Source: Pyrobaculum neutrophilum V24Sta
GTDB lineage: Archaea; Thermoproteota; Thermoprotei; Thermoproteales; Thermoproteaceae
Assembly (NCBI RefSeq): GCF_000019805.1
Contig: NC_010525.1
Span: 992,001-1,056,000, forward strand
Reading direction: 5' to 3'
DNA: 64,000 nucleotides
The notes below the pieces were generated by a model. It was not told where the DNA came from, made no database searches, and was given only the letters and a program-made list of their open reading frames with translations. Shown here in pieces: positions 1,820-19,247 of this stretch (within the stretch, counting starts at the first letter, position 1; each line of letters starts with the position of its first letter). The translations under genes were made by a program, and so were the position numbers.

Positions 1820-2024
1820 AAGGGTTTAGAAAGCCGAAGGCGAAGAATGGCGCTGGGTCGCGCCCTCTATGAGGCGGAGTTATGATGGTAGAGGCGAAGA
1901 ATGGCGCACGCCGTCTCTCAGACAGAGGAATGTGTGAATGTAAAGGGCGGTGGAAAAGCGACCGCCGAGGGAACAAAAAACCACGAAAAAACTTAAAAAC
2001 CCAAAAGATCCGAAAATACAAGCC
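1820..2024 (+). promoter_or_regulatory. CRISPR leader 1
   Basis: AT-rich sequence upstream of array 1. The box ACTTAAAAAC at about 1990-1999 is centred 30 nt before the first repeat and is identical in sequence and near-identical in spacing in leaders 2-4, although array 1 has a different repeat. The 15-mer GGCGAAGAATGGCGC occurs twice in the leader, at about 1839 and 1893. The degenerate repeat at the opposite end of the array confirms that this is the leader side. Confidence 0.75.
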
Positions 2025-3068
2025 CCAGAAATCAAAAGATAGTAGAAACGCAACGACGAGCGGGCGCTGTCGACATTCGCACTGAGACACCAGAAATCAA
2101 AAGATAGTAGAAACCTAAAAAACGCACAACCTTCTCGATTCTCTCTTGTCCGCTCACCAGAAATCAAAAGATAGTAGAAACCAGATGAGATACGCAGACT
2201 GTTTCTGCCTGCAGCAACTACCAGGCCAGAAATCAAAAGATAGTAGAAACTGAGTAGCTCTTGAAGCGTCACCCAACGCGGTAGCTGGGATATGCGCCAG
2301 AAATCAAAAGATAGTAGAAACGACATATGGAAGATCCGCTGGCCCGAGGCGATAAAGTCGCCAGAAATCAAAAGATAGTAGAAACCCGGCCCCTGAGGGG
2401 CCTCTAACTTCGTAAACTCTATTTTTTGACCAGAAATCAAAAGATAGTAGAAACAAGGTGCGCGGTGAGGACGTACTGCCTCTGGATTCGGAGGTGCCAG
2501 AAATCAAAAGATAGTAGAAACCTTGTTGGAGTTGCTCTGGGCTTTGCCGTCGGCGCGTTCTGGCTCACCAGAAATCAAAAGATATGTAGAAACGAGATAC
2601 GCGATGGCGTAGAGACTGCGACGTTGTCTCGCCCAGAAATCAAAAGATAGTAGAAACACGCTTCTTGCAAGACGCGTATAGTCGCGTCGCGGTTGTTGAC
2701 CAGAAATCAAAAGATAGTAGAAACACACCGCTTGGGCTCGAGGCTGAGGAGCTCCTTGAGCCGGCCAGGCCAGAAATCAAAAGATAGTAGAAACAGAGAC
2801 TCGTAGAACAGTAGCCAAGAGTACGCCTTAGACCAAACCAGAAATCAAAAGATAGTAGAAACTCCCTGGTGTCTGCTAAGACGTCCATTACGGCGCCGCC
2901 TTAACCCAGAAATCAAAAGATAGTAGAAACCCACATGGACTATACATGGATGTGGGGCCTGAAGGAGAGGGAGTACCAGAAATCAAAAGATAGTAGAAAC
3001 GGTCTCGCGATCCTGCCCAACACCGCCATGGCGACCATGGCGTCCAGAAATCAAAAAATAGTAGAAAC
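2025..3068 (+). CRISPR. CRISPR array 1, 16 repeats, 25-nt repeat
   Basis: Repeat units begin CCAGAAATCAAAAG and end ATAGTAGAAAC. Starts are at 2025, 2090, 2157, 2226, 2297, 2361, 2430, 2497, 2568, 2633, 2700, 2770, 2838, 2906, 2976 and 3044, giving 15 spacers of about 40-47 nt. The copy at 2568 carries a one-base insertion (GATATGTAGAAAC) and the last copy at 3044 has AAAAAATAG instead of AAAAGATAG, so the leader-distal end is on the right. This repeat family differs from arrays 2-4 and lies 22 kb from the cas genes. It matches my recollection of Pyrobaculum repeats; processing is probably by the Cas6 at 24502. Confidence 0.97.
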
Positions 3069-3508
3069 AACTACACGATGATTCATATGTGCTTGACTTA
3101 CGGTGAGCCGACGAAATTTGTGACTTTTAGAAGTTGGCATGTATAGCTGTATGACTTTATCTTGATTATCAAGTTTCTACTGTGTTTATCGCATGCAGTG
3201 GCTTGGTTTTGCATTGCTTCAGCTTTATGTTTTTCATGGCCCTTTCTCAGGCCGGCGTTCGGTTTCCTACCCATCTTTACGTTTATACAATGCTCTTATG
3301 CGCTCCTAACATGGTGGATCCCCCCGTGTCGGGGGCGTGGACGGCCTTTGACGGCGTTGGCCGGCTGTCGGAGCTGCCCTCACCTGGCCGCGCCTCTGTA
3401 GGGTCTGGTGTGTTGATGGTTGTTCTGGTTCCGTGGTTTGGCGGCTTGTGGGTGGGGGTCTGGTGGGGTGGTTTTGTGGTTGTTTGGGTGTGGCCGTGTG
3501 GTTTGGGC
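3069..3508. other. Gene-free stretch after array 1
   Basis: About 440 nt without a convincing gene. The first 150 nt are AT-rich; the rest becomes G/T-rich on the plus strand towards the 3' end of the next gene. Frames present here are low-complexity (Gly, Val, Trp) and lack a promoter. Confidence 0.5.
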
Positions 3509-4753
3509 TTAAGCTGTGTTTTCTTTTAGTCTTGTGATGATTTGTCGGAGTGCTTGGCTGGTTTTTTCGTCGCGGTGGTTTTGGGAGCTGAGGTAGGAGT
3601 CTAGGGCGGCTAGGTGGGTTTTGTCCAGGCGTCTGAGCTCGGCTGTGGGGATTCTCCTGTCTGTGGGGTCTGCACGTCTTATGATGGCGTCGGCTCTCTG
3701 TGGGTCCATTTCGTAGAATATCTGGCGGAGGGTGTATCCATATATCGCCGCTCTGTCCAGCCCGTAGAATATCTTCCTGCCGGCGAGCTCTTCGGCGGCT
3801 TTGATGGCGTGGTAGATTATGGAGCGGGCGTGGGCGTTGAGGGGGCCCCACCTGCTGTAGCCGGTGTTTTTCGGCTCTCTGAAGTGCTGGCCCATGTCAG
3901 AGAGGGCGCGGTATATGGTTCTGACGGCCTCGGCGTAGAGGTACTCGGGGCGGGAGTAGTTCGCGGCCTGCACCCGGACGAGGGTGCAGTGCCAGCATCC
4001 GTATCTCCCGCCTAGGGAGCCGCCGGCGGCGAGGCCTCTGTAGAGCTCCTCCAGCGGCTGGACGTCGAAGTCCTTCTGCGCCCTCAGAAAGCTCCAGACC
4101 ATGTCATATGTCCAGAACCTGATGGGGGCTATCTTGGGTATGTCGCCGTGGGAGAAGTAGGCGCCTAGGCAGGAGCCGCCTCCGGAGCAGGTGCCGAACC
4201 TCGTCTTCATGCTTTTCGCCCTGGCGCCGCTTTCCTCGTCGCGTGAGCCGACCACCAGCACGTGGTTGGCGTGACGTCTGAGCTCCCGCTCGGTGGGCTC
4301 TATCTTGAGCATGTCTACGCACCACCTGAAGTTGAAGGTGGGGGCGGGGTACCCCCTCACGAGGACTCTCCAGTACCACGTCTCGGTGGGGTGGGGGTAG
4401 GCGTATCTCACGTGTACGTCTGTGCCCAGCTCCCGCATCTTGGCTTTGAACTGCCTGGCGAAGTGGTCTACCCACAGCTCCATCTCCGGTATCTCGGAGA
4501 GGGTGTCGTTGTGGAGGAGGACAACCCTGTTTTTCACGCCGTTGCGCCGCTTGGCCCACTTGTAGAAGAGAATGGCCGCCGCCGTGGAGTCCTTGCCTCC
4601 AGAGAAGGCGATGACGAAGGTTCTATATTTTAAAGCGGCTTCTTCAAAAACCTCGAATGCCTCAGAGAGCAACAGGTCAAGACTCACGGGACGTAGAGGG
4701 TAGAACTCATTTAAGCATTGAGGGCACCGCAAGGTATCATGAATACGACTCAT
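3509..4753 (-). CDS. DndC/PAPS-reductase-like protein
   Basis: A 414-residue protein with an N-terminal CPQC pair (residues 10-13, possible zinc ribbon) and the PP-loop SGGKDS at 51-56, the ATP-pyrophosphatase motif of PAPS reductases and DndC. Further on come NFRWCVDMLKI, a Cys-containing GTCSGGGSC stretch and RYGCWHCTLV. The last resembles the GCWxCT signature I associate with DndC, the sulfur-transfer subunit of phosphorothioate DNA modification. No dndB, dndD or dndE is visible nearby, so a full Dnd system is not supported; a sulfur-transfer or nucleotide-adenylating role is the safe reading. It diverges from a methyltransferase pair starting at 4792. Confidence 0.75.
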   Translation of the reverse strand: MSRIHDTLRCPQCLNEFYPLRPVSLDLLLSEAFEVFEEAALKYRTFVIAFSGGKDSTAAAILFYKWAKRRNGVKNRVVLLHNDTLSEIPEMELWVDHFARQFKAKMRELGTDVHVRYAYPHPTETWYWRVLVRGYPAPTFNFRWCVDMLKIEPTERELRRHANHVLVVGSRDEESGARAKSMKTRFGTCSGGGSCLGAYFSHGDIPKIAPIRFWTYDMVWSFLRAQKDFDVQPLEELYRGLAAGGSLGGRYGCWHCTLVRVQAANYSRPEYLYAEAVRTIYRALSDMGQHFREPKNTGYSRWGPLNAHARSIIYHAIKAAEELAGRKIFYGLDRAAIYGYTLRQIFYEMDPQRADAIIRRADPTDRRIPTAELRRLDKTHLAALDSYLSSQNHRDEKTSQALRQIITRLKENTA

Positions 4754-4791
4754 CTGGTTTTTGGAGTCTTAGTGAGCTCCTTCGGAGGGAT

Positions 4792-5895
4792 GTGTTTCTG
4801 TTTGTGGGGGCTCTTCGGTTTGTTTTTGCGCCGTTTTTCGCCGGGGGGGATGTGGCGACGTGTGGGGTGGTTGGGAGGCTTTGTTGTGGGTCTGGGCGGC
4901 TTGGGGTTAACTACTGGGTTGGTAGGCATGTGGCTGTGGTTAGGGGGGAGCTGGGGAGTTTGAGGAGGTGGTTTATTCCGTGTTCTGTGGATAGGCGGAG
5001 GATGCCTCCTCTTGCTCGGTACGAGAGGGGGGGCTTTGTCAGATTGTTGGGTGGTGGTGTTTGGGTAGATGTGGGGGCTGTGCGTGGGACTGAGGTGGGT
5101 GGGGTGGTGGCGAGGCTTGCGGAGAGGTGGAGGGTGTGTGGGGGGCGCGACGTCTATTCGCTTGCCAGGTGTGTGGGGGTGGCTGTGGGCTCTCTGGTGG
5201 ATGTGGTTGTGCTGTTGCGGGGGCTGTTTCCGAACCTCGTGGAGGTGTACTCGGGCGGGGTGTCCTTCGACGAGTTTCTGAGGGGGTTTGGGGTGGGCGG
5301 GGCGGTGGATGCGGGGGTTCTGTGGGAGGAGGCTAGGAGGTTTGTGAGGGGCGGCGTGGTTGTGCCGAATTTGGGGCTTCTGCCTAGGGGCCGCTATGTC
5401 AGTGTGAGGTCGAGGGCGGCCCGGTACGCCATTCCGCCTATCCTCTCCTACGCCGACTTTAAAAACGCCGTTGTGGCAGACGTGGGCTCGGGCTTCGGGA
5501 CCAAGGGGGCGGCGTCTCTCAGGTGGGGGGCGCGGCACGTCGTCCTCCTGGACGTGGACGAGGCCGTGCTGAGGGAGCGGGGCAGCGGCCTCCTGGTGGA
5601 CCGGGTGGTGGCGGACGCCCACATGCTCCCGCTTAGGGATAGAGCCGCCGACGTGGTGATCTTCTGGAACGTGCTCAACTTCCTCAGCGACCCGGACAGG
5701 GCGGTGGAGGAGGTTGGTAGGGTGGCGAGGCGGGAGGTTGTGTTTTCGGTGTACAACGCCGCCAGCGGGAGGCAGATCAGCTACGGCGAGTTCCTGGAGG
5801 TTCTGTCGAGGTGGGGGGTGCCGAAGGCCGTGAGGAGGCTCGGCAACAGCCAGATGCAGGCCGTGGTGCGGCGTCATGAGGATCCGGGTCCTTAG
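4792..5895 (+). CDS. SAM-dependent methyltransferase with unknown N-terminal domain
   Basis: The C-terminal third is a class I methyltransferase: motif I VVADVGSGFGTKGA, an acidic strand end VVLLDVDE, then ADVVIFWNVLNFL. The first about 200 residues are unassigned, rich in Val and Gly, and encoded by strikingly G/T-rich DNA. I chose the GTG at 4792 because GGAGG lies a few bases upstream; the open frame continues upstream into the divergent gene, so the start is uncertain. The gene overlaps the next methyltransferase by 20 nt. Substrate unknown; proximity to the DndC-like gene hints at nucleic-acid modification. Confidence 0.65.
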   Translation: MFLFVGALRFVFAPFFAGGDVATCGVVGRLCCGSGRLGVNYWVGRHVAVVRGELGSLRRWFIPCSVDRRRMPPLARYERGGFVRLLGGGVWVDVGAVRGTEVGGVVARLAERWRVCGGRDVYSLARCVGVAVGSLVDVVVLLRGLFPNLVEVYSGGVSFDEFLRGFGVGGAVDAGVLWEEARRFVRGGVVVPNLGLLPRGRYVSVRSRAARYAIPPILSYADFKNAVVADVGSGFGTKGAASLRWGARHVVLLDVDEAVLRERGSGLLVDRVVADAHMLPLRDRAADVVIFWNVLNFLSDPDRAVEEVGRVARREVVFSVYNAASGRQISYGEFLEVLSRWGVPKAVRRLGNSQMQAVVRRHEDPGP

Positions 5896-6424
5896 GGAGC
5901 ACTACTGCGCAGACTGCAGGATAGTTAGGAGGAGCCCCAGGAGCACGGGGGTGAAGCTACTCCTCTCGGTGGCAGACGCCGCGGGCATGTCGGTCCTCGA
6001 CTTCGGCTGTAGCAACTGGCGCAACTCGGCGTATCTGGAGTCGCTGGGGGCCCGTGCCGTGCGGATGGACGCCATACCGGACACCCGGCCGGACGTGGTC
6101 GCCTACCCCACACACCTGCCCTTCAGAGACGGTGCCTTCGACGTCGTGTTGTACACCCACGTACTGATGTTCCTAGAGAGGAAGGAGGACTGGCCCGCCG
6201 CGGTTGCCGAGGCCGCCAGGGTGGCAAAGAGGTACCTAGTGCTTGAGACCTACATGGTAAAGCACCCAGGTGCTCTGCGCTATGGGGTAGAAGACCTCTT
6301 TGAACTGGTGAGGGGGTTGTCGGTGGTGAGGAGAAACGTGAGGTTGGATATGCAGAACCTCGTCATCTCGCTACGACCTTCTTCGTCTCCTCCAAGTTCT
6401 CGAACATCTCGGCGGTCTTCATGA
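5876..6424 (+). CDS. SAM-dependent methyltransferase (type 11-like)
   Basis: A 182-residue protein with the class I fold markers VLDFGCSNWRNSAYLE (motif I, around residue 40), an acidic residue after the second strand (RMDAIPDTRPD) and FDVVLYTHVLMFLERKEDW. The N-terminus has a CADC pair. It starts inside the preceding methyltransferase, so the two are translationally coupled and probably act together. Its 3' end overlaps the convergent helicase gene by about 60 nt; the last 20 residues are Ser/Arg-rich and may be read-through. Substrate unknown. Confidence 0.65.
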   Translation: MRIRVLREHYCADCRIVRRSPRSTGVKLLLSVADAAGMSVLDFGCSNWRNSAYLESLGARAVRMDAIPDTRPDVVAYPTHLPFRDGAFDVVLYTHVLMFLERKEDWPAAVAEAARVAKRYLVLETYMVKHPGALRYGVEDLFELVRGLSVVRRNVRLDMQNLVISLRPSSSPPSSRTSRRSS

Positions 6425-7817
6425 GCTTGCGCAGCCCCTCCACCTGCGTCTTCTTTAGCCTTTTAAGTCCCCTTTCGCTTCTTTTAAACAGTGTCTCTGT
6501 TTCTTCCTTCAGCGACGTCATATGGCCTATCACCACGAGGGTTCCCCTCTGGCGGCTAAGCTGCACGTTGAAGATGTAGGGGTCTGAGAAGTAGTAGGTC
6601 CAGAAGGCAATGTCTGTATACTCCTTGGCCGCTGGTGCTATGATGATGTCGTCTTCTCTCCCGAGGAAGCTGGCGACCGTGGAGAACCTTATATCGGCGT
6701 CTCCGGCGAGTATCCTGGCGGCGAAGGCCATTTTGCCGTAGGGCGCAACGACGGCAATCCTCTTCTCATCTTTCTTGAGCTCCACCGCGGCGCGGATGGC
6801 TTTAGCCAAGCAACTGGTGAGTTTTGCGCGCTCGATGTCGTACTGGTCGCCTTTTTCAAACACCTCTGTCTCGATGTAGAGCAGTGGGGTGTTGGAGAGC
6901 TTAGTGAGGGCCTCCTCCACGGCACCTCCGTATCTCTCGCAATCGCCCGCTACCCTCTTCATAACCTCCTTGACCTCGTCGCTTGTGAGGCCCAGCAGGT
7001 ACGGCTTGCCCATGGCTCTTAGGTCTCCGGCGTAGTAGCCCTCCTTGATTGGGGTCTCGGTCTCGGGGGGTAGCCTCATGCTTACGTCAAGCCTCTTTAT
7101 CTCCACGTAGTCGCTCCCCTGTTCCCTCAGCTGGACGGCTTTCTCCAAGAGGAGCCACTCCCTCTCGTCCTCCGAGATGCCTATGGCTTGGTTGGGGTCT
7201 CCGATAACCGCGAAACCCCTTATGAGGTCGTCGGGCTTCCCCTTGGCCAACCCGTCCGCGATGGGGACTAGGAACCTGGCTAGCGTCATGCGGCTGGCCT
7301 CGTCTATCAGGAGGTAGGCCGGCCTGGGCGGGTACATCCGGGCGTATACCCTCTGCCAGTCTGTGGAGATTATTAGGCCGACTCGCTCGTCGGCTCTCTT
7401 GAGGAGTTGGGTGAACTCGCTTGCGGATATCTTCGACCCGTAGATCCGGACGGCTTTTGCGAAATCGCTGCTTCTGCAACCGCCTCGGGCGCTCATGAAG
7501 GCGGCGAATTTCTCGAGGAAGTCCACGAGGAGCTCGTTGGTGGGGGCGATGTAGATGTAGAGGTTCTCCGCGGCCCCCCGGCAGAGGCTGTCCCCCAGCA
7601 GGTTGGACAGGAGGTAGGCGTAGAAGGTGGTCTTCCCCGCCCCCGGGACCCCTGCCACCCCCACCACCCTCAGCTTCTCCGCGACAATATCTTCAACAGC
7701 CTTCCCTATGTCTGAGTAGGGGGGCCCTTTGAAGACTACGTCGACTCTCTGCCGCCGGCTCTGCTCCTGGTCAAGCCTCTTGACGATTCTGTCTACGTTG
7801 TAGAAGCTAGTACTCAT
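6363..7817 (-). CDS. SF1 (Dna2/UPF1-like) helicase
   Basis: A 484-residue helicase with Walker A GVPGAGKTT at 56-64, Walker B YLLIDEAS, motif III VIGDPNQA, motif IV region RIAVVAPYGKMA, motif V-like TVASFLGREDDIII and motif VI NVQLSRQRGTLVVIG. This is an SF1B set, as in Dna2 and UPF1. It overlaps by 11 nt the upstream gene, an Fe-S PD-(D/E)XK nuclease. Together the pair reproduces the nuclease and helicase halves of Dna2 or AddAB as two proteins. A role in end resection or in attack on foreign DNA is inferred from this pairing. Confidence 0.85.
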   Translation of the reverse strand: MSTSFYNVDRIVKRLDQEQSRRQRVDVVFKGPPYSDIGKAVEDIVAEKLRVVGVAGVPGAGKTTFYAYLLSNLLGDSLCRGAAENLYIYIAPTNELLVDFLEKFAAFMSARGGCRSSDFAKAVRIYGSKISASEFTQLLKRADERVGLIISTDWQRVYARMYPPRPAYLLIDEASRMTLARFLVPIADGLAKGKPDDLIRGFAVIGDPNQAIGISEDEREWLLLEKAVQLREQGSDYVEIKRLDVSMRLPPETETPIKEGYYAGDLRAMGKPYLLGLTSDEVKEVMKRVAGDCERYGGAVEEALTKLSNTPLLYIETEVFEKGDQYDIERAKLTSCLAKAIRAAVELKKDEKRIAVVAPYGKMAFAARILAGDADIRFSTVASFLGREDDIIIAPAAKEYTDIAFWTYYFSDPYIFNVQLSRQRGTLVVIGHMTSLKEETETLFKRSERGLKRLKKTQVEGLRKLMKTAEMFENLEETKKVVAR

Positions 7818-9363
7818 CGCTCCCCGCCATGACCATGTTTTTGAGGGTTTCCAGGAACCAGCCCTCCTGGCCGAAGTGCTTCACCAGCGCGTTCTCGGCC
7901 ACCGCCAGCGCCTTCAGCTCTATGTTCATCGGCACCTGGCCGGGGCACACCCTCACCCGTTTCCACACCCTCTCGGCGCCTCTGTACTTATAGAGGAGGT
8001 ACACCGGTATCCACCTAATCGCGAAAGTTGGGGACACCATTCTGACGTATGCCGTCAGCCTCCCGCCGGAGTACTGCACCTCGTCGTCTTCATATCTGCC
8101 AAAGAGCGCAGGCGAAAACACCTTCGGTGCTTCGCCCGCCTCCGGGTAGGGGAGGCCGTCTCGTAGAAAGACATAGACGGTTGTCCTCCCTAGGGAGTAC
8201 CTCATGATGTCTTTGTGTTTCTCCGACCCGCTGAAGTTCTTGACGAGCTTTATAACATTGGGCTCGGCGAACTCCACCTCGTCGAATTCAACGCACTTGT
8301 CCCAGTTAACCAAGTTGGCGTACTCCTCGCTCTTCTTCCTAAGAGCCGTTCTATACAGCTTGTACATCTCCTTTCTAAGCCGAGCCTTCTCCTCGGGCAA
8401 ATCTCTGCTAAATCTATAGACACAGAGCTTTAGGTAGGGACAATATTTACAAGGATATTTATTTTCGCCGTTCCCCCGCGTGGGGTTGTAGGCCTTCAGC
8501 TTGACGCCGCTCTTTACCAACGCGCGGAGGGTGTTTCTGCAGAAGGCCATTGAATAAAGCGCCCCGGCGGCGATCTCCACTAGCTTCTCATCGCACTTGC
8601 CCTTTATTGTCTTGACCTCCTTCAGGTCGGGCGGCTCTTCGTTGATGGATACGACTTTAGTCTCCTTACGTTTCGGCGTTGCGTATATTAGGAAGGCGTG
8701 GGGGTCCACCCCAAGGGCCTCCTTGAGGATTAGCTTGTAGGCTGCCAGCTGGAGGCAGTGCATAGCGTTATTCTGGTTCTCCCTCAGCTTCCAGTCCACG
8801 ATGATGCTGTTCTTCCCGTCCACAAGCAACACGTCGGGCACCCCGATGAGGGGAAGCGACCTCACCTCGTCTCCGGTCTTCACAACCTTGCTTATCAGCT
8901 GTCGCTCCGGGAACACCAGCACGTGCTCTGAGATCAACCCCCTTCTGTGGGCCCAGTCAACAAGGGCGAGGTAGCCCCTCAGCAGAGCCTCCACCCGCTC
9001 CCTTGTTAGCCTGTAGTCGCTTGTGGAGATGTTGGAAAACCTCTCCACGACGTCAGCGTGTCTTCCCCAGATCTCCTCGAGCCTCTCCTCCAGAAACGCC
9101 GAGGGGTCGTACCTTTGCCTCTGCCGGAAGTATTCATACGTGACAGGCACGGCCAGCATGGCGAGGGCGTCGTGGACAGCCGTGCCCTCGCGGCCCAGTC
9201 TCACATCGGTGTGGGCGTTGGGCATGTGGTCAATCATCGCCATGAAGTAGGCCTTCTTTAGGCAGAGGGAGGCCCCAACGGCGGCGACCTTCGCCGGTAT
9301 TAGCAACTGGTTTCGCTGAAACTCCCTATCTAGGCACTCTCTTAGATGTTGGGAAAAGTCCAT
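7807..9363 (-). CDS. Fe-S cluster RecB/Cas4-like nuclease
   Basis: A 518-residue protein with the full RecB-family pattern: H64, D177 (GVPD), D190-K192 (DWK), Q205 and Y209. Four cysteines, C34 and C305/C308/C314 (CKYCPYLKLC), sit where AddB and Cas4 nucleases bind a 4Fe-4S cluster. The protein is far longer than Cas4 and has about 200 extra C-terminal residues of unknown role. I chose the ATG at 9363 because TTAAATA at about 9384-9391 (minus strand) gives leaderless spacing; an ATG at 9375 is too close to it. It forms an operon with the SF1 helicase. Confidence 0.85.
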   Translation of the reverse strand: MDFSQHLRECLDREFQRNQLLIPAKVAAVGASLCLKKAYFMAMIDHMPNAHTDVRLGREGTAVHDALAMLAVPVTYEYFRQRQRYDPSAFLEERLEEIWGRHADVVERFSNISTSDYRLTRERVEALLRGYLALVDWAHRRGLISEHVLVFPERQLISKVVKTGDEVRSLPLIGVPDVLLVDGKNSIIVDWKLRENQNNAMHCLQLAAYKLILKEALGVDPHAFLIYATPKRKETKVVSINEEPPDLKEVKTIKGKCDEKLVEIAAGALYSMAFCRNTLRALVKSGVKLKAYNPTRGNGENKYPCKYCPYLKLCVYRFSRDLPEEKARLRKEMYKLYRTALRKKSEEYANLVNWDKCVEFDEVEFAEPNVIKLVKNFSGSEKHKDIMRYSLGRTTVYVFLRDGLPYPEAGEAPKVFSPALFGRYEDDEVQYSGGRLTAYVRMVSPTFAIRWIPVYLLYKYRGAERVWKRVRVCPGQVPMNIELKALAVAENALVKHFGQEGWFLETLKNMVMAGSDEY

Positions 9364-9375
9364 ATAGCAACGCAC

Positions 9376-9446
9376 AAGCCTCTATTTAACTGTTTAGAAT
9401 AGGCTGTAAAAAGTAAAAGATATAAATGTGATTTTGTGGATATGCA
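9376..9446. promoter_or_regulatory. Divergent leaderless promoters
   Basis: Two TATA-like boxes share this gap. GATATAAAT at about 9418-9426 is 25 nt before the plus-strand ATPase ATG (9447). TTAAATA at about 9384-9391, read on the minus strand, is 25 nt before the nuclease ATG (9363). The nuclease-helicase and ATPase-unknown operons are therefore back to back and may be co-controlled. Confidence 0.7.
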
Positions 9447-10745
9447 ATGGAGATCTGCAGGTCTGTTCTCCGGCTTGGGGAGGGCGAGCATATACTTGAG
9501 ACCCGCGAGGGCATGGCGGCGTATGTATCTCCGGGCGTCAACCTCGTCTTTGTCACGGGTTACTACGGCTACGGGAAAACCTACGGCGTTGGTTACTACG
9601 TGATCTGTCAGGCGTTGGCGCGGGGTGAGCCTTTCCTCTACGTCAACGTTAGGGATCTAGGCCACGTTATTTCAAAGCTCGCGGTAGACGTTGAGGCGGG
9701 CGGCGCCCAGGGGCTTGAGGATCTCCTGTTGATTCTGGCGCAGGTTGCTCGGGGGGACCTCTTGAAGCGGCTAGCGGATGACCGCGTCGTTATCACAAAC
9801 GTTGATCTTGAGAATATCGCCAGTGCCGTCATCGCCAACGCGGGAGACCCCGTTCGGCACTTCGTGAGAGAGTTCGCTAAGGTCTCAGCTCGGAAGAGCG
9901 CATATCTAATTTTGGACGAGGTGGAGAGCGGCATAAGGGATGTGAAATCCTTCATTGAGAGGGTGTGTACAACGGTGAGAAACGAGATTTACGACGCCGG
10001 CTATCGGAACATCAAGTTGATACTGCTGCTCCAGGAGGCTGTGTTGGTTGCGCATGGGGCAGAGCCGCGGTGTTCCACGATAAGGGGGGCCGAGGGGATC
10101 ACGAGGGCTATTAAGCTACGCGGCTACGGGTCCGACGTATACCTCAAGTATATCAAGGACAGAATCGGCGAGGGGGGTGCCGACGAGAGGGAGCTCAAGA
10201 AGATAGCCGAGCTTGTGAGCGAGTTCCCGCCTAGGGTTGCCTTTGATGTGTTGAGGCAGTATATCACATATGGCGAGCTTACCTACACCGCGTTCAAGGA
10301 CTTCCTCTCGGCCATCTTCAAGGACACTAAGGAGAGCTTCCTACTGGAGTTGCCCAAAAGCGGCACTGAGTACTTCATGGTGGTTGGAGAGGTCGTGAAC
10401 GACCTCAGAAACAACAAGATTGAGGCCTCCTTTGAGGAGGTTAAGTCCAAGGTGTACAGGTTGTGGGTGTCTTGTGAGAGGGAGAAAAAGAAGGAGGTCT
10501 ATATGGATCTCAGGGCCTACACAAAGGAGGAGAGGGAGTCGGACGCCGACGTCTCCATCTTCACCAACGGCGAAGACCTGATGATCGCGACCAAGAGCTC
10601 CTCGCCTAGGCCGGTCATGAAGTTCAGACATTTCCTAATGGCCTACTACCCAGGTGAGTCGCACATACAGGGCCTAGGCGAGATGTACAACCAGTTCAGG
10701 CTGGTGTTCAGAGAGGCGCTGAGGCGCGCGGCATGCAAGAGCTGA
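9447..10745 (+). CDS. P-loop ATPase of unknown system
   Basis: A 432-residue protein with Walker A GYYGYGKTY at 38-46 and Walker B YLILDEVES (D157, E158), followed by an arginine-bearing strand LILLLQEA that may be sensor 1. The Y-G-Y-G-K-T form of the P-loop recalls ATPases with large DNA partners such as those in BREX-type systems, but I cannot assign it to one. The last codons overlap the start of the next gene by 13 nt, so the two are coupled. It diverges from the Dna2-like nuclease and helicase, with which it may form one system. Confidence 0.75.
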   Translation: MEICRSVLRLGEGEHILETREGMAAYVSPGVNLVFVTGYYGYGKTYGVGYYVICQALARGEPFLYVNVRDLGHVISKLAVDVEAGGAQGLEDLLLILAQVARGDLLKRLADDRVVITNVDLENIASAVIANAGDPVRHFVREFAKVSARKSAYLILDEVESGIRDVKSFIERVCTTVRNEIYDAGYRNIKLILLLQEAVLVAHGAEPRCSTIRGAEGITRAIKLRGYGSDVYLKYIKDRIGEGGADERELKKIAELVSEFPPRVAFDVLRQYITYGELTYTAFKDFLSAIFKDTKESFLLELPKSGTEYFMVVGEVVNDLRNNKIEASFEEVKSKVYRLWVSCEREKKKEVYMDLRAYTKEERESDADVSIFTNGEDLMIATKSSSPRPVMKFRHFLMAYYPGESHIQGLGEMYNQFRLVFREALRRAACKS

Positions 10746-11806
10746 TACACCTAACGGCCGTTGCACGGGACGTAGTATACCACACCTTAAGAGACGTCAT
10801 CTCCCAGTGGGACCGCTTAAGTAAAAGCCGTAGGCGCGCCGAAGCCCGCGTAAACAAGCTGGCTCTGTCTGACGACGTGGAGGTCCACCGCACGTACGCC
10901 GTGGTGGAGAAGAGGGGGCTCGAGTCGCGCAAGGTGCTCCAGGATCTGCTCTCGGCTCACCCCATCTACGGCGAGCTCTACGAACACGTCGTAAAGGACG
11001 CGCCGTTTCAAGACGACTTAGTGGAACTTCTGGCCCACCAGACCGCTTTGGCGCTAGCTCTGTCGCCGGCGCACCACGTCGCCGAGGGCACGTGCAAGCT
11101 CTGCAACGCCCGGCTACACGACGCCGTGGAGTACAGCATATCCGACCTGCTGGAGGGCCTTATCACCCAGTTCGTCCTCGGGCGGCACACCGTCGCCCAC
11201 CTCTACGTGTACGGCTCCTCTAAATTCCGCCACTGGCTAATAGTGGGACAGCGTCAAGGGGCGGTGGACCCCGAGAAGGTGCACGAGCCTACGGTGATAA
11301 AGGAGCTGGCTCCCCCCATCTACGCCTACCTGGCATCCCTCAACCTTGTGTCTAACGCCATAGACGAGAAGCTGAGGGGATACGACATACTGGGGAAGCT
11401 CGCCCTATCCCGGGGGCAGGAAAAGGTTATCGTGCTGATGGGGCTTGGAAATGCTCTTGCCAAATCTCTCCTGTCCGGGCTCATATACAAGAACCTGGAC
11501 TACCTCAGGGCGCTGTTCGCGTCCATCCTCCTGGCGGACGTCCTCATAGCCAACGTGGCAGACGTCCTAGAGAGGGGAAGCGTCGACGTACGTTCGGTAA
11601 TGGCGCTCGCCCACGAGCGGTACATGCGCTACAGAGAGCCCATCGAGACCGTGCTCAACAAACACTCGCTGAAGAAGGACAAGGCTGTGATTTACGAGGT
11701 CTGGGACGCCGTGAGAGACTCCACAATCAAATACATGATCTACGCAGCCGAGAGACAAGAAGACGAGCTAAAGCTAAGCGACGCCATATCCTTTAGAATC
11801 CCCTAG
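10733..11806 (+). CDS. Unknown protein coupled to the ATPase
   Basis: A 357-residue, largely helical protein without a recognised domain. It has one CxxC pair (CKLC, about residue 121) and a run of Leu/Ala-rich helices in the second half that look soluble, not membrane-spanning. ATG at 10733 overlaps the ATPase stop, so the ratio of the two products is likely fixed. By context it may be the regulatory or structural subunit of the ATPase. Confidence 0.65.
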   Translation: MQELIHLTAVARDVVYHTLRDVISQWDRLSKSRRRAEARVNKLALSDDVEVHRTYAVVEKRGLESRKVLQDLLSAHPIYGELYEHVVKDAPFQDDLVELLAHQTALALALSPAHHVAEGTCKLCNARLHDAVEYSISDLLEGLITQFVLGRHTVAHLYVYGSSKFRHWLIVGQRQGAVDPEKVHEPTVIKELAPPIYAYLASLNLVSNAIDEKLRGYDILGKLALSRGQEKVIVLMGLGNALAKSLLSGLIYKNLDYLRALFASILLADVLIANVADVLERGSVDVRSVMALAHERYMRYREPIETVLNKHSLKKDKAVIYEVWDAVRDSTIKYMIYAAERQEDELKLSDAISFRIP

Positions 11807-11872: not shown

Positions 11873-12259
11873 ATGGAGGAGCTACTGATTACAACAAGAT
11901 TCATCTTGACATTCGTGTCCACGATCACTGCGGTGGTCGGCGCACTTAGTGATACGCCGAACATATACCCCATAGTTAGTCTCCTCTCCATGTCGCTTGC
12001 CTTGACATTAAGATCCATCGCAACCTACATCGTTGATGAGGTTGTCAGCATCGTATATACACTAGCCCTGTCGCTGATTATTTCCATCGTGGGGTCGATA
12101 ATGGTAGGCGAGGCACTCTCGCTGTTTCCTATCTTCGACCCTACGCCTCTGAACACCATTGTAACTTCCCTAGAAGCGGCGTACATCATACTGAACCTGG
12201 TCCTACTAGCCAGCGACTTGATAGAGCTCCTCCGCACGGTGAACTCCCCCATCTTTTAA
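11873..12259 (+). CDS. Small integral membrane protein
   Basis: 128 residues with three or four hydrophobic helices (LTFVSTITAVVGAL, IVSLLSMSLALTL, LALSLIISIVGSIMV, YIILNLVLLA) separated by short loops. A TATA-like AAATTTAAATTA near 11844-11855 lies about 25 nt before the ATG. It follows the ATPase-unknown operon at 67 nt with its own promoter. Small membrane proteins are common end genes of defence cassettes, where they can act as membrane-disrupting effectors; here that is only a possibility. Confidence 0.7.
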   Translation: MEELLITTRFILTFVSTITAVVGALSDTPNIYPIVSLLSMSLALTLRSIATYIVDEVVSIVYTLALSLIISIVGSIMVGEALSLFPIFDPTPLNTIVTSLEAAYIILNLVLLASDLIELLRTVNSPIF

Positions 12260-12486
12260 GGCATACCATTCAGCAACAGGTCCGACTACACCGTCTAAGT
12301 ACTCCTTAACACCTATACCCACATCACCGGCACCGGACAATCTTCAACACAACCCTCCGCTTTAGACAAGTCCCCCCGAAGACGGCAGTCCACCGGGGCC
12401 CACCGACCTTAGCCCGGGGGGCTGAAAGCCGGCGGTCTGGAGATAGCCCCAGGAGAAATGTTTTTTGGGGGTGGTTGGGAGGTGAC

Positions 12487-13746
12487 GTGGCTACCTACTT
12501 CAGCGGGGTTAGGGTCTCTGTATCTAACTTTGGGCCAGTGAGGCGGGCCGAGTTGGTGGCGGGGGATCTCACCGCCGTCATAGGCCCGAACAACGTGGGG
12601 AAGTCGTGGCTGGCCTCCCTCATCTACGCGGTGCACAACCTCGTCTTCTTCCACCTGCCTAATTTTGTCAAGGGCGCCCTGTCTGAGGTGGGTGTGCGGC
12701 TGTGCGCAGGTGCCGGCGCCGAATGTCTCAGGGAGAATCTGCATGAGGTGGAGAAAGTCGCATTGGAGAGATCGAAGGCGTTAGCGGGTGAGGCCTTAAA
12801 GCGGGAGTTGGAGTCCGTGTTGGGGACGAGCGACTTTGTCACATACGGCGAAGAGGAGGCGGCTGTGGAGGCTAGTGCACCATCGCTGGAGGTCTCTTTT
12901 AAGGCGCTTCTTCCCAGGGGAGAAAGGCCTCGCGTTGAGGTAAACATACCCAGTAGTCTCGTAAAACGCGCTGTGGAGGACGTCGAGTGGGTGGCGTTCT
13001 CAGCCCGCGGGGCGACCCTCGGCTTTAAAGGGCTTCTCCCCATGCGGCGCTCCGTCTACATCCCCGCCGAGAGGATCGCTCTCCTCACGGCGTTCTACGG
13101 GGTTGTGGAGGCGTTGGTTAGGCTTTACGGGGTGAGCCAACTGGTTAGGGAGGAGCTTCCCAGGCAGTTTTTCAAGCCTTCTCTGTCGCTTTATGCGGCT
13201 GACGTGATAAACCTCATCAGGAGCGGCGCGGTGGAGAGAGTGGGCGGGCACTTTGGCGACATTGGGGCCGCGCTTCTCGACGGCGATGTGGCCGTGGAGG
13301 GGGGGACTATGGCGGTGGTGTATGAACACGCGAGCGGGCTGAGGCTGCCGGCGGCTCTTGCCTCGTCTGGCGTGGCGCAGGTGGCGGGGCTTCTGCTGGG
13401 CCTCATGGTGAGGAGGGGCGACCTGGCGGTGGTGGAGGAGCCCGAGATCAACCTGCACGCCAATAGGCAGGTCCAGGTGGCCGAGCTTCTGGCCCGGGAG
13501 GCGCGGCGGAGGCCTCTCTTCGTGACAACCCACTCGGACCTAGTGGTGATGAAGCTGGCCCACCTCTACGCGAAGGGGGAGGTGGAGAGCCTGAGGCTGT
13601 ACTACCTACACGACGGCGAGCTGGAGGATCTACCCGTCGACAGAAGCGGGGGCGTGCCCGAGATAAAGTCCATCTCCTCCGTGATAGAGGAGCTGAGCGG
13701 AGAGGCCCTAGAGCTGTATGCCAAACTGCAACGCGGCGTGCGTTAG
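12487..13746 (+). CDS. ABC/OLD-type ATPase
   Basis: A 419-residue SMC/OLD-like ATPase. Walker A GPNNVGKS is at 33-40; the C-terminal half holds a signature-like ALASSGVAQ, Walker B LAVVEEPEINLHA and the H-loop FVTTHSDL. There is no TOPRIM domain, unlike full OLD nucleases. GTG 12487 is chosen because a T-rich box near 12460 gives leaderless spacing; a TTG at 12475 is the alternative. The next gene starts inside its 3' end, forming a two-gene ATPase plus putative nuclease cassette. A sensor-plus-effector defence role is inferred from this layout. Confidence 0.8.
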   Translation: MATYFSGVRVSVSNFGPVRRAELVAGDLTAVIGPNNVGKSWLASLIYAVHNLVFFHLPNFVKGALSEVGVRLCAGAGAECLRENLHEVEKVALERSKALAGEALKRELESVLGTSDFVTYGEEEAAVEASAPSLEVSFKALLPRGERPRVEVNIPSSLVKRAVEDVEWVAFSARGATLGFKGLLPMRRSVYIPAERIALLTAFYGVVEALVRLYGVSQLVREELPRQFFKPSLSLYAADVINLIRSGAVERVGGHFGDIGAALLDGDVAVEGGTMAVVYEHASGLRLPAALASSGVAQVAGLLLGLMVRRGDLAVVEEPEINLHANRQVQVAELLAREARRRPLFVTTHSDLVVMKLAHLYAKGEVESLRLYYLHDGELEDLPVDRSGGVPEIKSISSVIEELSGEALELYAKLQRGVR

Positions 13747-15928: not shown

Positions 15929-18325
15929 CTACCGATAGAATAAGTCATTGATCAGCCACCTCATAAACCTCCTTCTTAGGCTTCGGGAATATCTCACCCC
16001 GTCGTCATGCAACCCGGCCACCCTCAGATATATCCAAAACGCCGCAAGCCAAACAGCCACATCCTCCGCATACCGCCTATCACGCTTCTTACCGTACCCC
16101 CTAACCGCCTTCTCAAGCCGATAGGCTAGCGTATCCGCCGTCGGATCCGCCAAGTATAGACCCGAGAGCCGCCGCGCCGCCTCCTCCACCTTGCCGTCTG
16201 CCAACAGGCGGGCCACCTCGACAACGAGACCCTCCAGCCCACCCACCGAGGCCGTTGAGGCGACTCTACACCCCCCGAAGTCCGACACGCCCAACCCCCG
16301 CAACCTGCTAAAGGCGCACAAGAGGGCGGCGGCCGCCCCCCTCAACCCCCCATCCCCCATCACCTCCCACACAGGAGCCACCTGCCCGCCGATCCCCCTT
16401 GCCTTCAACACGGCAGAAGCCACAACCGCAACGGCGTGCCCCAGTGGGTCCACCCCCCTCTCCACAGCCCTCCGCATGTAGGCAAAGACAGAAGCCTCGC
16501 CACCGCCCAAGAGGGCCTCCGCTACCTTCTTCTCCTCCAGCTCAATCCCAAACATTGCCACCTGGTCAAGCAAAACCGTCCTCCCAGACACGACGACGTA
16601 ATCCTCTCCAACGACCTCAAGACGGCCCTCCACAACCTCTCCATTGGACAAAACCACCGAGCTCCGCACAACAGAAGCCCTATTCTCATCGATCCACCGC
16701 CTTGCAAAAAACTCGAAGATGTTTAGATCAGGGAACAAAATACGCCAACCGTCGTAAGTATTTAAAGATAAAAATAGTATGATGACTAGAAAAGTAACAG
16801 CTATCAATATATTTGTTACATAAATATAGTGATTGTAATTAATCAAAAGCCATGTGTATAAAAAAGGTGTAAATGTAATAAACAATAATAAAATATTGAG
16901 TGAGTTTATAATATAGAGCATTATGGCATTCAAAAGCCACCTATCGAGCCTAGAGATGTCACTTGATGCCTTTATTAAAATAGTAAAAAATATTACGAGA
17001 AAAAATCCATAAATTAAAATAGTTGTATATTCATATGTATGCAATATCATAGAAAGAGGTATGACATAAAAAAGTGTAATGCCTAAAACTGAGATGATGA
17101 ACACTACCATATACATCCCCAACGCCACAATTAATGACATCACATAGTTTTTTGCAAATCTTCCTCCAATCCAACTTATATAAAATATAAGAATAAAATT
17201 ATAACTAAAAATCAAAATTTTATTTATAATATCAGCAATTTTCATATTATTGAAAATATTTGAAATAAGATAGAAAATCATAAAAATTACAAATATGTTC
17301 AAGAAGAAAATAGGCGTTAAATAATATATCATTATCTTAAAAAAATTTAATGGTAATCTTATTATTTTTATAAGGTCTGTGCCTAGGGCTTGAGAGAGGG
17401 CTGTTATGTAGAACTTCCGGCGTGTTGTTGTGAGCAGAGTTCCGACGTAGGCGCTTATCACACCCAGTATGTTAATCAACACGGCCCCCAGCGGGTTGGC
17501 GTATTCCAGCCCTATCTTTACGTCGGCACCTGGGTATACTGAGTATCGCTCGGATCCGTCTGACGTAAGGACCACCCCCCTGGTGAGGAGCCAGAGGAAG
17601 CTGTAGTTAACGTTGCGCAACGCCGAGATGTTGACCGCCGCGTGGGGCCCCACGTTGCACAGCTGGAGCCTGACCCTCTGTGCGGCGAGATCTGGGAGGT
17701 AGACGGCGGCGCGTCCCCCCGCCCCCTCCACGTAGAGGGGGGACCCCGAGACGAGCCCCGACAGGCGGTAGAGGTTCTCCACCTCCACCGTGGCGTTGCC
17801 CGGGCCGCCGCGGAGATCCACGTCGCAGGGGTACTCCCGCCAGGTCCGCAGCACCACCGCCCCCTCCCCCAGGGGGAAGTACCGCGGGGCCAGGGGCCAC
17901 TCCACGTAAGCCGACACGGCCGCCCCCACCGACATGTTGACCCCCCTCACGAGCCTAATCCCCACCGCCGGCCTCCCCGAGGCGAGGTCCACCAGGTAGA
18001 GAACCCCCGGCGCCTCCGCCACCACCGCCACCGGCCCACCCCTCAAGTCGACGACGGGCACCCCCCGGAGCCTAGCCCCCACCTCCCCAGCCGGCACAAT
18101 AAAACACCTAAACGACCCCGACGGCAAAACGGCGTAGGGGTAGCCCACCGCCTCCGCCGCCCCGCTACAGTTCCCCAGCCCCCGCCACACGTCAGTCACC
18201 ACAAACACATAACCCCCAGGAGCCGCCTTGACGACGCCCCCCAAATCCACATACTCACCCACAACCGCCAGCCCCCCACCCGCCCAGCCAAACGCCGCCA
18301 ACAACACAAGAAACACAACAACCAT
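15929..18325 (-). CDS. Large cell-surface/membrane protein A
   Basis: 798 residues in four parts: a signal-like N-terminus (VVVFLVLLAAFG), a roughly 300-residue extracellular domain, six or more closely packed membrane helices, and a GC-rich cytoplasmic C-terminus of about 230 residues. It shares REYPCDVDLRGGPGNATVEV with the divergent gene at 19248, so the two are paralogs. The membrane part (about 16740-17370) is encoded by extremely AT-rich DNA, the rest by GC-rich DNA. I chose the ATG at 18325 because GTTTTATAT at about 18343-18352 (minus strand) gives leaderless spacing. Function unknown. Confidence 0.75.
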   Translation of the reverse strand: MVVVFLVLLAAFGWAGGGLAVVGEYVDLGGVVKAAPGGYVFVVTDVWRGLGNCSGAAEAVGYPYAVLPSGSFRCFIVPAGEVGARLRGVPVVDLRGGPVAVVAEAPGVLYLVDLASGRPAVGIRLVRGVNMSVGAAVSAYVEWPLAPRYFPLGEGAVVLRTWREYPCDVDLRGGPGNATVEVENLYRLSGLVSGSPLYVEGAGGRAAVYLPDLAAQRVRLQLCNVGPHAAVNISALRNVNYSFLWLLTRGVVLTSDGSERYSVYPGADVKIGLEYANPLGAVLINILGVISAYVGTLLTTTRRKFYITALSQALGTDLIKIIRLPLNFFKIMIYYLTPIFFLNIFVIFMIFYLISNIFNNMKIADIINKILIFSYNFILIFYISWIGGRFAKNYVMSLIVALGMYMVVFIISVLGITLFYVIPLSMILHTYEYTTILIYGFFLVIFFTILIKASSDISRLDRWLLNAIMLYIINSLNILLLFITFTPFLYTWLLINYNHYIYVTNILIAVTFLVIILFLSLNTYDGWRILFPDLNIFEFFARRWIDENRASVVRSSVVLSNGEVVEGRLEVVGEDYVVVSGRTVLLDQVAMFGIELEEKKVAEALLGGGEASVFAYMRRAVERGVDPLGHAVAVVASAVLKARGIGGQVAPVWEVMGDGGLRGAAAALLCAFSRLRGLGVSDFGGCRVASTASVGGLEGLVVEVARLLADGKVEEAARRLSGLYLADPTADTLAYRLEKAVRGYGKKRDRRYAEDVAVWLAAFWIYLRVAGLHDDGVRYSRSLRRRFMRWLINDLFYR

Positions 18326-18484
18326 AAACACCCCAGAGAAGCCATATAAAACCCTTACCACAACCTAACCCCCAAGCCGAGAGACTCTCAACAGCAACAT
18401 TAAACGAGCCGCACAAGACCCAGCCCCCCGCCACGCCAAAGACCCAACCCCCCAAACCCCCCACGAGCCCCCACGGCACACCGC

Positions 18485-19029: not shown

Positions 19030-19247
19030 GCCAAGACAACACCACCATAAAAACCTTCAACCACACACCGGCGGCGTCGCGCTGGCCCCAGCCGCCTCCC
19101 AACCCCCCGTCGCCCCCCCGGCCCCCCGTGGCTACTCGGGGCCCCGCTGTTCCCAGCTCCGGCCCTCGGTCGGAGGCGCCGGCCGGAGGGCGGCCCCGCG
19201 GTGCGCCCAACAGCGCAAGACTTAAAAACGCCACGTTGCGGCTGGAT

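Follow-up and report, generated by a model that had tools for sequence, protein, structure and literature searches.

In Pyrobaculum neutrophilum V24Sta, genes for a predicted nuclease, helicase and ATPase lie close to genes of the DNA modification type, and the question is whether they form one defence system and what such a system would do. We analysed a stretch of 64,000 nucleotides (nt), called the window here (positions 992001-1056000 of a single contig of 1,769,823 bases; coordinates below are those of the window unless another locus is named). An earlier note on its sequence had proposed an unnamed defence system of four genes, encoding the nuclease, the helicase, the ATPase and a 357-residue protein. 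We retain the unnamed defence system, but the proposed boundary was too tight, as a DndC-like gene and two methyltransferase genes (MT1 and MT2) are also conserved in the locus. Our interpretation is that this cassette is probably a restriction-modification (R-M)-like defence system in which the mark is of DndC type and probably phosphorothioate-like, the ATPase is possibly of ORC/STAND type and the effector is a split pair resembling Cas4/Dna2. The linkage of the DndC-like, nuclease and helicase genes in rearranged order, the intact catalytic residues and the occurrence of the same nuclease-helicase family with DNA methyltransferases elsewhere all support it.

Linkage of the DndC-like, nuclease and helicase genes

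A profile of the helicase, run over 398 Thermoproteota genomes with a match threshold of E <= 1e-15, found the family in 14 of them, and all 14 helicases adjoin a modification module: eight the same DndC-like subfamily and six DNA methyltransferases. The eight top-scoring helicases are exactly those of the eight genomes with the cassette DndC alongside, and the remaining six group in a subfamily with lower scores. Beside the helicase, five of these six carry a same-family nuclease, a DUF1156 methyltransferase, a DUF499 ATPase and a third methyltransferase ('BREX-related' loci), and in the sixth, on a short contig, the helicase lies beside the same third methyltransferase. The same-family nuclease adjoins the helicase in 13 of the 14 cases, the fourteenth being a contig fragment. 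Eight genomes whose DndC-like genes are more distant (G126, G131, G209, G224, G234, G258, G371 and G374) lack the helicase at E 1e-15.

The invariant core of the cassette is accordingly small: DndC-like, nuclease and helicase genes are adjacent in eight genomes (the window, G005, G009, G031, G067, G218, G221 and G271), in varying gene order and strand. One locus of G005 holds homologues of all four genes of the earlier proposal together with the DndC-like gene and both methyltransferase genes. The order is MT2, MT1, DndC, nuclease, helicase, a gene like that of the 357-residue protein and ATPase in G009, and ATPase, nuclease, helicase, MT2, MT1, DndC and the 357-residue-like gene in G031, a Vulcanisaeta metagenome-assembled genome (MAG). 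G271, found with the ATPase profile, has the ATPase, 357-residue-like, nuclease, helicase and DndC genes and a second PAPS (3'-phosphoadenosine-5'-phosphosulfate) reductase together, with neither MT1 nor MT2, and G218, G221 and G067, found with the DndC-like profile, have DndC, nuclease and helicase alone. A contig scan added a MAG contig labelled Bathyarchaeota (binning unconfirmed) with DndC, MT1, MT2, nuclease and helicase. The ATPase and the 357-residue-type gene accompany the core in five of the eight loci. The co-occurrence proposed earlier is thereby borne out for nuclease, helicase and ATPase, which share one locus in five genomes in changed order; for the fourth gene it holds in part, all five having the gene or a positional counterpart of unproven homology. 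The hypergeometric overlap between DndC and helicase genomes is 6e-16, a figure that ignores shared ancestry and gives scale only, and the changed gene order is better evidence for linkage. Within Pyrobaculum the cassette is intact in three of 11 genomes, and broken remains are found in G041, G012 and G002.

This distribution bears on the simplest alternative, namely that the pair consists of housekeeping enzymes of DNA repair or end resection (a split Dna2) with chance neighbours. An Fe-S RecB nuclease with a superfamily 1 (SF1) helicase does have a Dna2/AddB-like architecture, but a helicase confined to 14 of 398 genomes is not a housekeeping resection enzyme; it is also missing from most Pyrobaculum, always has a modification module alongside and has left cassette remnants. 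The distribution largely refutes this alternative, to which we attach hardly any credence, and the outcome that the earlier note had named as refuting its proposal, a pair of ordinary resection enzymes, did not arise.

Several loci carry further genes. The G271 locus has the second PAPS reductase, nearest SspD, and a second ATPase-like gene (L073, 11478-12284 and 17634-19058), and the stretch after it (L074) has two DUF1156 methyltransferases. G005 has, between ATPase and nuclease, a gene that weakly matches a proteasome family (L007, 12213-13022; PF00227, E 0.001); it overlaps the ATPase gene and occurs in no other cassette. Beside the G009 locus lie a restriction enzyme and a 5-methylcytosine methyltransferase. 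In G014 (L097, 2232-5600), a DndC-like domain is C-terminal in an open reading frame (ORF) of 1122 amino acids (aa), the N-terminal part of which has no Pfam match, beside a 2091-aa ORF.

Nuclease and helicase

The nuclease gene (7807..9363, minus strand) encodes 518 aa from its ATG, or 522 aa if started at the GTG at 9375, and matches Pfam PDDEXK_1 (E 3.1e-14) and, weakly, Cas4. Among the positions invariant over nine cassette nucleases are C34, H64, E153, GxPD177, K192, Q205xxxY209 and C305/C308/C314, and C34, H64, E153, D177, K192, Q205, Y209, C305, C308 and C314 are kept in all 14 nucleases when the DUF499-linked subfamily is included, in agreement with the complete set of catalytic and cluster residues claimed before. 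As judged from the alignment, they are the RecB/Cas4 catalytic motifs (H, GxxD, (D/E)xK and QxxxY) and the four cysteines of a predicted cluster. The Upf1/Dna2-like SF1 helicase (6363..7817, minus strand, 484 aa) overlaps the nuclease gene by 11 nt and is convergent with MT2, with a 62-nt overlap; the ORF coordinates confirm the overlapping operon and the location of all four ORFs described earlier. It matches Pfam AAA_12 (E 1.1e-7) and DEAD (4e-6), and the conserved motifs are Walker A, APTNEL, DEAS, GDxxQA, RLP and VQLSR. Its PADLOC match to SspC is weak (E 0.037).

The five DUF499 and DUF1156 loci (L115-L119) contain this nuclease-helicase pair in split form, plus a further methyltransferase that has a TSPPFANN motif. 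They are possibly a variant of the BREX-related (BR) systems, in which a Cas4/SF1 effector would replace the superfamily 2 (SF2) fusion.

DndC-like protein and methyltransferases

The DndC-like protein (3509..4753, minus strand, 414 aa) is a PAPS-reductase/PP-loop protein and putative sulfur-transfer modification enzyme, with matches to Pfam PAPS_reduct (6e-18) and PADLOC DndC (E 1.8e-34); those to BrxP (2e-10) and SspD (6e-8, far below DndC) are poorer. Against TIGR03183 it scores 106 bits (E 2.5e-30), below the equivalog cut-off of 290 bits, and we therefore call it DndC-like rather than DndC proper. The motif SGGKDST and the cysteines C145, C253 and C256 are invariant in ten of ten DndC-like sequences, including two annotated bacterial DndC, and the three cysteines are those common to adenosine-5'-phosphosulfate (APS) reductase.

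MT1 (4774..5895, plus strand, 373 aa; alternative ORF start 4657) combines an N-terminal domain of about 220 aa with a class I S-adenosylmethionine methyltransferase (Pfam Methyltransf_11, 1.9e-11). Its profile found full-length relatives in cassette loci only among the 398 genomes, ordinary methyltransferases scoring far lower. MT2 (5876..6424, plus strand, 182 aa) shares 20 nt with MT1 and is a small class I methyltransferase with a conserved N-terminal CxxC (Methyltransf_11, 9e-11), orthologues of which adjoin MT1 in every intact locus with MT1. Both resemble class I methyltransferases of small molecules, proteins or RNA more than DPPY/NPPY DNA methylases, and they accompany DndC in Thermoproteales and in the one MAG contig labelled Bathyarchaeota.

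Probable exchange of marking and cutting modules

Comparison of the window with the Pyrobaculum locus L007 gave identities of 56% for DndC, 50% for MT1, 67% for MT2, 47% for the nuclease and 48% for the helicase. Locus L031 differs from L007 in another way, with high identity for DndC (76%, over 262 aa, the gene being truncated at the end of the contig), MT1 (63%) and MT2 (69%) against low identity for nuclease (20%) and helicase (24%), indicating that marking and cutting modules were probably exchanged. The distances of nuclease and helicase are correlated with each other (r 0.84), and those of nuclease and helicase with DndC less so (r 0.34 and 0.66, respectively).

Such partly different histories might mean that two independent defence systems are neighbours here, one for modification (DndC, MT1 and MT2) and one consisting of nuclease, helicase, ATPase and 357-residue protein. 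The halves of a single R-M system could give the same picture, however; the nuclease-helicase of this subfamily was not found without DndC (eight of eight), and the DndC subfamily is found without nuclease-helicase in decayed or fused copies only. We consider two separate systems decidedly unlikely. The module exchange and patchy distribution would also suit genes of a mobile element, such as a plasmid or virus replication or anti-defence module, but the helicase had no match in 72,556 plasmid records or 50,697 phage records, or, by a pattern scan, in the viral contigs, and an origin of this kind appears very improbable. The loci also show that modification modules of sulfur type and of methyl type have one helicase-nuclease effector family in common, a finding relevant to the swapping of restriction effectors and marks.

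ATPase and 357-residue protein

The P-loop ATPase (GYYGYGKTY; 9447..10745, plus strand, 432 aa) has homologues in four other cassette loci and no significant Pfam match, those to AAA_16, AAA_22 and nSTAND5 being weak (0.005-0.05). Its structural model, with a predicted local distance difference test (pLDDT) value of 52, best matches STAND/ORC proteins (2qen, the N-terminus of BrxC 9zll, ORC2 and Cdc6) with Z scores of 7.0-8.5, in a range (Z 7-8) frequently reached by unrelated models, and has a ferredoxin-like C-terminal fold. This weak structural evidence refines the 'switch-like ATPase' of the earlier note to a possible STAND/ORC-Cdc6-type AAA+ core followed by a ferredoxin-like domain. The model is consistent with an ATPase of the ORC/Cdc6 type that SSP and BREX contain (PMC10853773, PMC12839542), without proving such a relationship.

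The gene of the helical 357-residue protein (10733..11806, plus strand) overlaps the ATPase gene by 13 nt. The protein has no match in Pfam, PADLOC or NCBIfam, in line with the previous description as belonging to no known family. It has homologues in two Pyrobaculum relatives and a positional counterpart in three more ATPase-bearing loci (G009, G031 and G271). Homology to these counterparts was considered and is not established (hhalign E 0.0085, probability 5%), and their profile fails to find the window protein. Structure prediction, which had been suggested for this product, yielded a helical AlphaFold2 model (five sequences, pLDDT 50) and no known relative in Foldseek (best E 0.07). A lone intact homologue occurs with an MT2 remnant in L008 (9425-18812), near a cytosine-5 methylase, an EndoIII-like gene, a 1095-aa DEAD helicase and an HExxH-type protein also present in L007.

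Proposed function

Beyond gene content, conservation and linkage, everything that follows is what we infer. At specific sites of the host DNA, the DndC-like enzyme would introduce a sulfur mark that is most likely phosphorothioate-like, with sulfur supplied by a desulfurase encoded elsewhere in the genome. Desulfurase-fold genes (PF00266) are present, and housekeeping enzymes can replace DndA (PMC10853773). MT1 and MT2 may finish, tailor or direct the mark in the Thermoproteales version. The ATPase may scan DNA or load the effector, as proposed for SspC/BrxC-type ATPases, with the 357-residue protein as its probable DNA-binding or specificity partner. On unmarked invading DNA, the helicase would unwind and the nuclease degrade. 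Since some loci lack the ATPase pair and the methyltransferases, the MT1/MT2 and ATPase steps would be elaborations.

Several observations weigh against this interpretation. The cysteine dyad specific to DndC (GGEC...GCG; Cys262/Cys273 of E. coli B7A, PMC12193691) is present in the two aligned bacterial DndC and absent from all eight cassette members, so that the product may be something other than phosphorothioate or may be located in RNA. Ten window proteins in and near the locus gave no PADLOC match to a DndD/CxC ATPase or DndE (in a genome-wide DndE search the control gave no signal), nor to SspE or SspB (DUF4007), and no SspB-like partner was recognised. Assignment of the ATPase to DUF499 or BrxC by sequence was rejected for want of a match (DUF499 profile E 0.25, unalignable), the ATPase model is of low confidence, and the pLDDT of the 357-residue model also counts on this side. 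Moreover, no report of a sulfur mark in the genus Pyrobaculum was found in the open-access literature, and genomes that are related cannot be counted as independent events.

The absent dyad, together with the kind of methyltransferase that MT1 and MT2 resemble, would also suit a helicase-nuclease triggered by a virus or replication signal, acting by direct attack or cell suicide, with DndC-like and methyltransferase genes whose products modify RNA or make a small molecule instead of marking DNA. Elsewhere, however, this nuclease-helicase family is paired with DNA methyltransferases and with DUF499/DUF1156, which fits the logic of a DNA mark, and we regard triggering by a signal as unlikely. 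As an extension of the R-M-like reading, the DndC-like protein, MT1 and MT2 might make a sulfur-transfer-plus-methylation DNA mark. A sulfur linkage could, for instance, be capped by S-methylation or in some other way, or a base could be both thiolated and methylated, and a restriction complex of the split Cas4/Dna2 type would read the mark. This extension is speculative and unlikely; if true, it would give a combined sulfur/methyl mark that is not known from any organism.

Promoters and neighbouring genes

The divergent intergenic region (9364..9446) separates the nuclease and ATPase start codons by 83 nt, or 71 nt with the GTG start of the nuclease. By eye, and with no statistics, a TATA box was read on each side: atataaat at 9420-9427, 27 nt upstream of the ATPase ATG, and, on the minus strand, TTAAATAG (9389-9382), 26 nt upstream of the nuclease ATG. 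The gap is accordingly read, on the same visual basis, as two predicted leaderless-type archaeal promoters back to back, and the short gap with a double promoter described previously is confirmed.

Of the flanking genes in the earlier note, the DndC-like and methyltransferase genes turned out to be members of the system, whereas the relatives' loci do not share the membrane protein or the ATPase-nuclease pair. The membrane protein (11873-12259) and an AAA_15 gene (12484-13746) were excluded as members, as they lie beside no relative's cassette. A CRISPR array of 16 repeats (CCAGAAATCAAAAGATAGTAGAAAC, spacing 64-71) occupies 2020-3072, and about 440 bp separate it from the DndC-like gene. This array and the restriction enzyme and methyltransferase beside the G009 locus are surroundings that suit a role in defence. 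At 15929-18361 and 19128-21776, in opposite orientations, are the genes of two large membrane proteins (810 and 882 aa) of similar build, each with a secreted-looking N-terminal part and many transmembrane helices.

Comparison with known systems

Apart from R-M, CRISPR and argonautes, catalogued defence systems are low in prevalence in Thermoproteota (PMC12988326), perhaps because models are missing. The locus offers a candidate system whose chemistry can be tested, with a DndC-type enzyme that would work with no recognisable DndD/E or SspB and that two dedicated methyltransferases accompany in one lineage. We found no description of this arrangement in the open-access literature (subscription papers and preprints lay outside the search). 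The profile comparison suggested by the earlier note placed the cassette outside the BREX type 4, Dnd and SSP definitions, with the DndC-type component alone matching.

With Dnd (DndABCDE with DndFGH or PbeABCD) the locus shares a DndC-type PP-loop/PAPS-reductase enzyme with the three APS-reductase cysteines and the decoupling of modification and restriction modules, which is known for Dnd (PMC10853773). It differs in the missing dyad and in its effector, a Cas4/RecB-type nuclease with an SF1 helicase in place of DndFGH or Pbe. SSP and BREX type 4 combine a PAPS-reductase-type modifier with an ORC/Cdc6-type AAA+ ATPase that replaces DndD (PMC10853773, PMC12839542), as may be the case here, and BrxP likewise lacks the dyad (PMC12193691, PMC12839542). 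In contrast, the ATPase of the window is small and without sequence match to SspC or BrxC, and PglZ and BrxL have no match among the ten window proteins.

The DUF499-centred BR systems (PMC12839542) show the same arrangement of ATPase, modifier and helicase-nuclease, and the same nuclease-helicase family occurs in the DUF499 and DUF1156 loci of five relatives. The described BR effectors are SF2 helicases, mostly with a fused nuclease (PMC12839542). Unlike BR systems, the cassette has a DndC-like modifier and a short ATPase that does not align to DUF499, and profiles of the relatives' DUF499 and DUF1156 proteins have no match anywhere in the window. Finally, Cas4-like pfam12705 nucleases are linked to UvrD, mainly as fusions, in Mod/Res or Dcm/Vsr contexts (PMC5704561). 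These cases too tie a Cas4-like nuclease to an SF1 helicase in defence contexts, whereas the helicase here is separate, of Upf1/Dna2 type and accompanied by DndC. As far as its predicted proteins allow comparison, the cassette lies outside every canonical Dnd, SSP, BREX type 4 or BR definition and is built from similar kinds of parts.
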